Positions 7,356 to 10,012 of a DNA stretch of 64,000 nt are shown here, piece after piece. The notes beneath the pieces were generated by a model. That model saw nothing but the letters and a program-made list of their open reading frames with translations. It ran no database searches and was not told the origin of the DNA. The stretch is from contig JAVSMU010000001.1 in NCBI GenBank assembly GCA_032027045.1, forward strand, positions 1,058,646-1,122,645, given 5' to 3'. Source of the stretch: Truepera sp. (lineage in GTDB: Bacteria; Deinococcota; Deinococci; Deinococcales; Trueperaceae). The first letter of the stretch is position 1, and each line of letters opens with the position of its first letter. The position numbers and the translations under genes are program-made.

Positions 7356-8399
7356 TCAGTCAGGCGGCGCGAGGGTCTCCTCCAGGGCCGCGAGTATCTC
7401 CTTCACCGCGTCACGGTCGAGCCGATAGTAGGAGCGGTTGCCGCGCTTCACGACCTGGACCAGTTCCAGCTCACGCAGGAGGCGTAGGTGGCCGCTGGCG
7501 GTCGGCTGGGTCACGTTCAGCTGCTTGGCGAGGTCGCCCACCGTCAGCGGGAAGCGTGGCAGGCGGGCAATGAGCAGCAGCAGCAGGAGCCGCGTGGGGT
7601 CGGCGAAGGCCTTGAGGCGGTTCGCGAGACGCACCACTCCCTCCTTCTGCTCCTCGTAGATGTCCTCCGAGCGCACCCCGTAGCCGATGCACAGGCGGCT
7701 TCGGACCTGGAACTTGAAGCCACCTCGCGTCGCGAAGTAGAGAGGCACCACGAGCGTGCGCCCCTGCCGCCCGAAAGCCCGGATGTCGGCCACGTTCTCC
7801 TCGAAGCTCACGAAGTGGTGCACCGGCAACGACCGGGCCAGGTCGTTGCTGGCGCGCACGGCGGCGCGGAGGTCGCGGCTCGCGGCCGCCGTGACCTGCA
7901 CGCCGCCGTCCTCCCAGGCGGCTCGCAAGTGACTCCAGAGATGTCCGAGGTTCTCGGCCAGGCACGAGGCCGCCGCCCCGTCCAGCGCCTCGAACGACGC
8001 CTTGAGCGCGGCGTAGCTGCCGCGGGGATCGTCGGGATCGTCCTCGAAGCGGGCCGGGTCGAACACCCGGGTGAACTCCGCCAAGAGCCTGCCGGGCAAA
8101 CTGGGCAGGTCGCCCAGGAAGCGCTCGGGCGACTCGTCGTCTTCGTAGCCGAACGCGCAAGCCAACAGGAGCGCCTCGTAGCCCGTGAACCCGGTGTCCG
8201 CGGCGGGAAGGGTCGCAAGCCACTTCGGCGGGTGGTCCCTGAGTTCCCGCAGCCACGGCAGCGGGGTGTTCGGACTGGATGGGCCCAGCAGTCGGTAGTA
8301 GGCGTAGCACAACTCGATCACGGCCGCCGGCCTGATCACCAGCTCGGCCGGCCCCTCGCGCGGGCCCAGGACTCCTTCGCCTGGTTCGGCGTCCGTCAT
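7356..8399 (-). CDS. ArsR-type winged-helix transcriptional regulator with long N-terminal domain
   Basis: 347 residues. The last 90 residues form an ArsR-like winged helix (KAFADPTRLLLLLLIARLP, then the recognition segment LNVTQPTASGHLRLL and the wing KRGNRSYYRLD). No CxC-type metal site is visible in the HTH. The first 250 residues are an uncharacterised domain, alpha-helical in look, as in larger ArsR-like regulators. The ATG overlaps the stop of the upstream small gene as ATGA, so the two are translationally coupled. What it senses and controls is unknown; the divergent glycerate kinase gene at 8696 is an obvious candidate target. Confidence 0.8.
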   Translation of the reverse strand: MTDAEPGEGVLGPREGPAELVIRPAAVIELCYAYYRLLGPSSPNTPLPWLRELRDHPPKWLATLPAADTGFTGYEALLLACAFGYEDDESPERFLGDLPSLPGRLLAEFTRVFDPARFEDDPDDPRGSYAALKASFEALDGAAASCLAENLGHLWSHLRAAWEDGGVQVTAAASRDLRAAVRASNDLARSLPVHHFVSFEENVADIRAFGRQGRTLVVPLYFATRGGFKFQVRSRLCIGYGVRSEDIYEEQKEGVVRLANRLKAFADPTRLLLLLLIARLPRFPLTVGDLAKQLNVTQPTASGHLRLLRELELVQVVKRGNRSYYRLDRDAVKEILAALEETLAPPD

Positions 8400-8677
8400 T
8401 CCCAGTCGCGCACTGGAAGCAGGCTGCCGCCATCCACCGTAGCGAGGGTCACCTTGTGAGCGCGCGTCATCGTCACCTCGAGGACGGCGTTATCGAGCGT
8501 GTTCGGCCCCACCAGCGCCTTGCGCACGAAGTACGAGTTGCCCTGCAGGCTCATCTCGCTCGTCTTGGAGAGCCGAACGTGGATTATCTCCCCGTTGCGG
8601 TCGGTGCGCACCTGGCAGAACAGCGCGTTGGGGTCTTCGCGGAACCGCGGGTCCTGGCGCCTGAACAGTCCGAACAT
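8396..8677 (-). CDS. small hypothetical protein, coupled to ArsR-type regulator
   Basis: 93 residues, no family recognised. It is soluble-looking, with a charged N-terminus (FGLFRRQDPRF) and predicted beta-rich middle, one Cys and no membrane segment. The ATG at 8677 lies 6 nt after a minus-strand TACAAT, so it is read as a leaderless mRNA. Its stop overlaps the start of the ArsR-type gene (ATGA). The two-gene unit faces the glycerate kinase gene across only 18 bp. Confidence 0.7.
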   Translation of the reverse strand: MFGLFRRQDPRFREDPNALFCQVRTDRNGEIIHVRLSKTSEMSLQGNSYFVRKALVGPNTLDNAVLEVTMTRAHKVTLATVDGGSLLPVRDWE

Positions 8678-8682
8678 GAGAC

Positions 8683-8689
8683 TATTGTA
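8683..8689. promoter_or_regulatory. overlapping divergent -10 elements of two leaderless genes
   Basis: The plus strand reads TATTGT (8683-8688), 7 nt before the GTG at 8696. The minus strand reads TACAAT (8689-8684), 6 nt before the ATG at 8677. Five base pairs are shared, so the two polymerases cannot occupy the site together. Confidence 0.65.
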
Positions 8690-8695
8690 GCCAGC

Positions 8696-10012
8696 GTGAG
8701 TGCTCTCGAAGCCGACCTGCTGAAAGAGGCGCTGGCCGATGCGCTGAAGGCCGCCGACCCGACCACCGCAACGCGCCTCAACCTGCCGCCGCCGCCCAAA
8801 GGGCGCCTGATGGTAGTTGGCGCCGGCAAGGCAGCGGCGTCGATGGCGCTGGCCGCCGAGCAGGGTTACCGCGGCCGGGCCCGACCGGAGGGCCTGGTCA
8901 TCACCAGTTACGGCCACGCGCTACCTACCGAGCGAGTCGAGGTGTTGGAGGCGGCGCATCCCGTGCCCGACGAGGCGGGGGTGGCGGCCACGCGCAAGCT
9001 GCTGGACCTGGTGAAGAGCGCCGGCGAAGACGACCTCGTCTTGTGCCTACTGTCGGGCGGCGGATCGGCACTGGCCTGCGCCCCGAGTGGCCTGACCCTG
9101 GACGACAAGGCCTCGCTAACGAGGGAACTACTCGCGGCAGGGGCGGACATACACTCAATGAACGCCGTGCGTAAGCACCTCTCCAAGGTAAAGGGCGGCT
9201 GGTTGGCCGCCGTCTCCGGCGCCCCCGTCGTGACGCTTGCCGTCTCCGACGTCGTGGGCGACGACCCCGCCACCATAGCCTCGGGGCCGACCGTCGCCGA
9301 CGAGACCACGTTCCAGCAGGCCCTCGAGGTGGTCACCGACCTGGCCCCCGGCGCCGCCGCCGCGCGCGCCGCGTTGGAGGCCGGGCTGAGGGGGGAGAGG
9401 CCCGAGACCCCCAAGCCCGGGGACGAACGCCTCGAGGAGTCGCGTTTCGTGCTGGTGGCCTCGGGCGCCGACGCTGTCGGAGCCGCCGTGGCCAGACTGC
9501 GCGCCGCGGGGGTGGTTGTGCTCGCCGAGGACCCGCTGGTCACCGGCGACTCCGCCGAGACCGCGCTGCGCCAGGCGGACGAGGTCAAGCGCGCCCTGGC
9601 GGCCGCCCCCGCAGGCGAAGCCGTCGCGTTCGTGTACGGCGGCGAGACGACGGTGAACCGCCGCACCGGCCGCCTCGCCTTCGGTATGGCCGACGGCCGG
9701 CCCGTGGAACCCCCCGTCAGAGGAGGACCCAACGGCGAGTGGGCGCTGGCGTTCGCCAGCGCCATGTCCGGCGGACCGCCGATGTGGCTTCTCGCCGTCG
9801 ACACCGACGGGATCGACGGCGACTCCGACGCCGCGGGTGCCCTGCTGGGGCCCCGCCAGTTGAGTCACCTGAGCCTCGTCCAGGTAGCCGACTACCTGCG
9901 CCGCCACGACTCTCACACCCTGCTGAGCGCCGTGGGCGGTCTGGTAAGCACCGGCCCGACCCGCACGAACGTCAACGCCCTCCGCATCGCGCTCTTCCCG
10001 CCCCGCGTCTGA
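8696..10012 (+). CDS. glycerate kinase, type-2 (MOFRL) family
   Basis: 438 residues. The family phosphorylates D-glycerate, normally to 2-phosphoglycerate, linking glyoxylate/serine metabolism to glycolysis. Recognisable segments are VVGAGKAAASMA, LLSGGGSALA, the NAVRKHLSKVKGG substrate loop, SDVVGDDPATIASGPT and the C-terminal MOFRL domain with YGGETTV and AVDTDGIDG. The true start is the GTG at 8696, 7 nt after TATTGT; about 80 upstream in-frame codons run antisense through the divergent gene and were rejected. It may be controlled by the divergent ArsR-type regulator because their promoters overlap. Confidence 0.92.
   Translation: MSALEADLLKEALADALKAADPTTATRLNLPPPPKGRLMVVGAGKAAASMALAAEQGYRGRARPEGLVITSYGHALPTERVEVLEAAHPVPDEAGVAATRKLLDLVKSAGEDDLVLCLLSGGGSALACAPSGLTLDDKASLTRELLAAGADIHSMNAVRKHLSKVKGGWLAAVSGAPVVTLAVSDVVGDDPATIASGPTVADETTFQQALEVVTDLAPGAAAARAALEAGLRGERPETPKPGDERLEESRFVLVASGADAVGAAVARLRAAGVVVLAEDPLVTGDSAETALRQADEVKRALAAAPAGEAVAFVYGGETTVNRRTGRLAFGMADGRPVEPPVRGGPNGEWALAFASAMSGGPPMWLLAVDTDGIDGDSDAAGALLGPRQLSHLSLVQVADYLRRHDSHTLLSAVGGLVSTGPTRTNVNALRIALFPPRV

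Follow-up and report, generated by a model that had tools for sequence, protein, structure and literature searches.

Two divergent genes of Truepera sp. are separated by only 18 bp within the window, the 64,000-nucleotide stretch of DNA analysed here, which spans positions 1,058,646-1,122,645 of a single-contig genome of 2.92 Mb. The arrangement raises the question of whether a single seven-base element in this gap can provide the -10 promoter elements of both genes, with neither transcript carrying a leader. The features concerned are the following, in window coordinates.

7356-8399, minus strand: gene for a protein of 347 aa that ends in an ArsR-type HTH, second in the minus unit
8396-8677, minus strand: gene for P0001, a protein of 93 aa conserved in Deinococcota, at the head of the minus unit
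8677-8675, minus strand: start codon ATG of the 93-aa gene (CAT on the plus strand), read directly
8678-8695: intergenic gap of 18 bp between the divergent start codons, read directly
8683-8689: shared symmetric -10 core TATTGTA (TANNNTA), in a layout unique in the genome
8683-8688, plus strand: -10 hexamer TATTGT of the glycerate kinase gene, with a 7-nt spacer (8689-8695) to the GTG
8684-8689, minus strand: -10 hexamer TACAAT of the 93-aa gene, with a 6-nt spacer (8683-8678) to the ATG
8696-8698, plus strand: start codon GTG of the kinase gene, read directly
8696-10012, plus strand: gene for a glycerate 2-kinase-like protein of 438 aa (DUF4147 and MOFRL, from Pfam domains)

The plus-strand gene is predicted to encode a glycerate 2-kinase-like protein, with Pfam scores of 250 bits for PF13660 and 88 bits for PF05161, both above the gathering score, and with scores below the NCBIfam equivalog cut-offs. 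In-frame GTG codons lie upstream of its start (8456-8696, plus strand), and automatic annotation is therefore likely to extend the kinase N-terminally into the divergent gene, with a premature start. A simple gene caller, which missed the 93-aa gene, placed the kinase start at 8579. This candidate was rejected and the start is taken as 8696, because relatives carry in-frame stops. In three loci of the same genus (L003-L005), no in-frame start codon is present upstream of a kinase start that lies 17 bp from the P0001 start.

On the minus strand, P0001 matches no Pfam or NCBIfam family. The protein was found in 40 of the 41 related genomes searched, and an alignment of 24 sequences contains 16 invariant columns. 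Its structure is predicted to be all-beta in a confident model (mean pLDDT 91); the model matches no PDB structure at E <= 0.001, and a profile search against PDB sequences returned weak, short hits only. The next gene begins within the end of P0001, the two reading frames having 4 bp (ATGA) in common. Its product carries the ArsR-type HTH at the C-terminus, and the approximately 260 N-terminal residues are without an assigned domain. The original prediction placed an ArsR-type unit opposite the kinase. Such a two-gene unit is present, headed by the 93-aa protein and not by the ArsR gene; hence the direct partner of the kinase is the 93-aa protein, with the ArsR-HTH gene in second place.

Direct reading bears out the proposed geometry of the gap: TATTGT and TACAAT share five base pairs (8684-8688) and stand 7 and 6 nt from their start codons across 18 bp. 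At 8684 and 8688, the key -11A of each -10 element pairs with the key -7T of the other. A search for a Shine-Dalgarno sequence before both starts within the 18-bp gap found none for either gene. From the leaderless spacing, the 5' ends are predicted at 8677 (minus) and 8696 (plus), i.e. 19 nt apart, and the earlier figure of about 14 bp between the transcription starts is wrong. We propose that the gap is probably a bidirectional promoter of the Warman and Grainger kind, with both products predicted from sequence to be leaderless.

The pattern of -10-motif leaderless genes is published for Deinococcota (PMC12340547), and both genes fit it, with TANNNT 6-7 nt before the start and no Shine-Dalgarno sequence. 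The signature also stands out in this genome, of which we sampled 864 kb (30% of 2.92 Mb) in 40 stretches (L047-L086 of G000). TANNNT occurs before predicted starts 49 times at spacing 6 and 22 times at spacing 7, as compared to approximately 3-5 times at most other spacings. Among the leaderless -10 sites (n=105), a G is located two bases before the hexamer in 67-73% (about 70%). At the locus, GGC lies upstream of the minus hexamer TACAAT, with the G at this extended -10 position. An A directly after the hexamer, as in TANNNTA, is rare (6 of the 105 sites). Divergent pairs with gaps of at most 60 bp and TANNNT 5-8 nt before both starts number ten in the 864 kb, against 0-4 for control motifs, and the present pair alone has a gap below 38 bp, the other nine having separate promoters and gaps of 38-57 bp. 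A pattern search of the whole 2.92-Mb genome returned the exact layout once, at this locus and nowhere else, and two spacing variants of it not at all. The spacing peak, the scarce controls and the relatives described below support the original prediction of one seven-base -10 core for two divergent, putatively leaderless genes. That two TANNNT strings fell at such distances by accident is hardly credible, for, degenerate as TANNNT is, the spacing peak, the single genome match with near-zero controls and the conservation across genus and family all speak against it.

The two directions are likely unequal in strength. When both hexamers are scored with a weight matrix derived from these 105 sites, the minus hexamer TACAAT is near the median of these sites, whereas the plus hexamer TATTGT scores below all of them, at the bottom of random TANNNT, and is therefore predicted to be weak, with minus the stronger direction. 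Nor is there an accessory thymine at -18 in either direction (8678 is G for plus, 8695 is G for minus), although a T falls at -19 in the plus direction. It is conceivable, albeit unlikely, that the promoter works one way, with the minus direction alone being real. TATTGT would then merely reflect the symmetry of TACAATA, and the kinase would be served by weak upstream transcription or by a promoter that lies within the 93-aa gene. The rank of the plus hexamer, the 0th percentile among the leaderless sites, is in agreement with such a one-way promoter, as is a 4/6 match to TTGACA upstream of that hexamer. However, TTGACA-like matches are not enriched at the leaderless genes of the genome, and a -35 contribution was rejected on this ground.

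The relatives bear on the choice between one and two directions. Each of the 35 family loci examined, from 16 genera, has TANNNT before the P0001 gene at a spacing of 5-7. Within the host genus, TATTGTA is identical in 6/6 genomes, and in five of the six the kinase start is 17-18 bp away at spacing 7. The core of genus g7 is TATCCTA (or TATCGTA), with a gap of 18 bp and spacing 7 in three of the four genomes that have a nearby kinase; its plus hexamer TATCCT falls within the normal range of the weight matrix, in contrast to what a one-way promoter would suggest. Genera g11, g14 and g16 use AGTGTACCGT or AGTGTACCCT. This is a second register, where the minus hexamer is TACACT, the plus hexamer TACCGT or TACCCT, and the overlap is limited to the bases TA. 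The gaps are here 20-23 bp and the kinase start is located at a spacing of 5-6 nt. Every genome examined from these three genera retains the T6 of the plus strand, for which the minus hexamer has no need. The P0001 protein tree has many weak forks and is compatible with differing numbers of register changes. Two loci (L006 and L040) have a spacing of 10-11 nt to the kinase start, and the kinase mRNA would have to carry a short leader there.

The one-way reading draws further support from the symmetric seventh base, the A after the minus TANNNT, as TANNNTA is kept also where no kinase adjoins. The base is retained in g3, g6, g15 and g17, where the kinase is distant, and in g2, g9, g12 and g13, where no kinase was found nearby. 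Hence there is no core base whose conservation can be put down to the kinase alone, and the idea that the symmetric base is selected for the sake of the kinase was rejected as unproven. In three loci (L009, L013 and L016) the kinase start is 78-116 bp away and preceded by Shine-Dalgarno-like bases, with the symmetric TANNNTA before P0001 retained. A 5-nt Shine-Dalgarno-like match is present in three of the four loci with the kinase start 56-116 bp off, whereas none of the close-gap loci tested has a match longer than 4 nt; this contrast is as leaderless versus leadered expression would give. A leadered kinase mRNA at the present locus would be without the Shine-Dalgarno sequence that most distant-start relatives have, which argues against a one-way promoter. 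So does the finding that the kinase start is kept at leaderless spacing in five genera and across two hexamer registers, without a clear Shine-Dalgarno sequence. The position of the kinase start and the second register, where the conserved T6 of the plus strand falls outside the minus hexamer, are stronger evidence for plus activity than the conservation of the symmetric base.

For the preferred bidirectional promoter, we envisage the following mechanism. As the key A and T of each -10 element are paired with their counterparts T and A in the opposite one, the sigma factor would recognize TATTGTA whichever way it is read. Transcription to the minus side would yield a leaderless mRNA that encodes the 93-aa protein and, because of the 4-bp overlap, the ArsR-like protein as well; transcription to the plus side would yield a leaderless glycerate kinase mRNA. 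Both RNAs would begin at or within approximately 1 nt of their start codons (8677 and 8696), and the minus direction would be the more active. The core would hold one polymerase at a time, and the original claim that occupancy by one polymerase excludes the other follows from published work (PMC12825309). Measurable mutual interference should, however, require high activity in one of the two directions: at all five bidirectional promoters tested in E. coli the basal activity is too low for competition, and interference arises only once one direction has been strongly activated (PMC12825309).

For the same reason, the switch-like coupling originally proposed, between glycerate use and the regulator, is speculation. 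It holds that exclusion at the core places the kinase and the ArsR unit in alternative states, via glycerate or the ArsR-like protein, and we consider it very improbable. The two polymerase sites do overlap, and at this locus, as in several genera, the ArsR-HTH gene is part of the minus unit. However, the ArsR-like gene was not detected near the pair in g3, g6, g15 and most g7 loci, so that the pairing is independent of it, and the E. coli work speaks against switching at basal activity (PMC12825309).

The bidirectional promoter can be compared to systems already described. Bidirectional promoters of an 18-bp and a 23-bp class are known in E. coli and Salmonella (PMC12825309, PMC10268837), and the reciprocal -11A/-7T pairing in TANNNTA is that of the 18-bp class. 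The predicted start separation of 18-19 in the host genus corresponds to the former class, and the second register of the relatives, with only TA common, fits the latter. The starts here are predicted from sequence, and -18T, which is stimulatory but not defining in the published promoters, is missing. A further difference is that both products are here predicted to be leaderless protein-coding mRNAs, and the start-codon gap would thus be fixed by the promoter itself. The many leaderless genes of Deinococcota (PMC12340547) have the same TANNNT 6-7 nt from the start and no Shine-Dalgarno sequence, but here one core would serve two divergent genes; the words divergent and bidirectional are absent from that paper. 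Divergons of a regulator and its target, such as acrR/acrA (PMC12825309), likewise have a divergent promoter beside a regulator-containing unit, whereas the adjacent gene is here not the regulator and the ArsR-like gene is a neighbour in some relatives only. Our literature search, of incomplete coverage, found no description of doubly leaderless shared -10 promoters.

Similar arrangements are detected beyond the locus. In g20, which we infer to be a Thermus-like genus, pairs of start codons that flank TANNNTA at a distance of 17 bp from each other (pattern CAY-N5-TANNNTA-N5-RTG) occur 3-9 times per genome (158 sites in 27 genomes), as compared to four sites in total for the reversed control pattern, which is absent from 24 of the 27. 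At 20 of 33 sites inspected in four g20 genomes (L147-L179; G088, G027, G098 and G101), ORFs of at least 60 aa start exactly at both start codons. The pairs include Sir2 with NAD(P)H-hydrate dehydratase, indole-3-glycerol phosphate synthase with patatin, and histidine phosphatase with diacylglycerol kinase. A family-wide pattern with spacers of 5/6 was dropped as evidence, as control counts were similar in several genomes and its matches are attributable to chance. We see an even chance that doubly leaderless bidirectional promoters are recurrent in Deinococcota, with one symmetric core, starts approximately 17-18 bp apart, moves between the 5-bp and 2-bp registers, and both genes leaderless.

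If both starts are true, this is near the smallest possible divergent regulatory region, in which 18 bp are at once the promoter for two genes and the entire intercoding space, with no 5' UTR. The natural variants TATTGTA, TATCCTA and AGTGTACCGT offer tests of what -10 symmetry costs in strength, and the searchable pattern, present in many genomes of the Thermus-like genus, makes it possible to ask whether polymerase competition serves regulation. As a separate observation, the nine other divergent leaderless pairs of the genome sample, with separate -10 motifs placed back to back, may have a preferred spacing of 38-57 bp.
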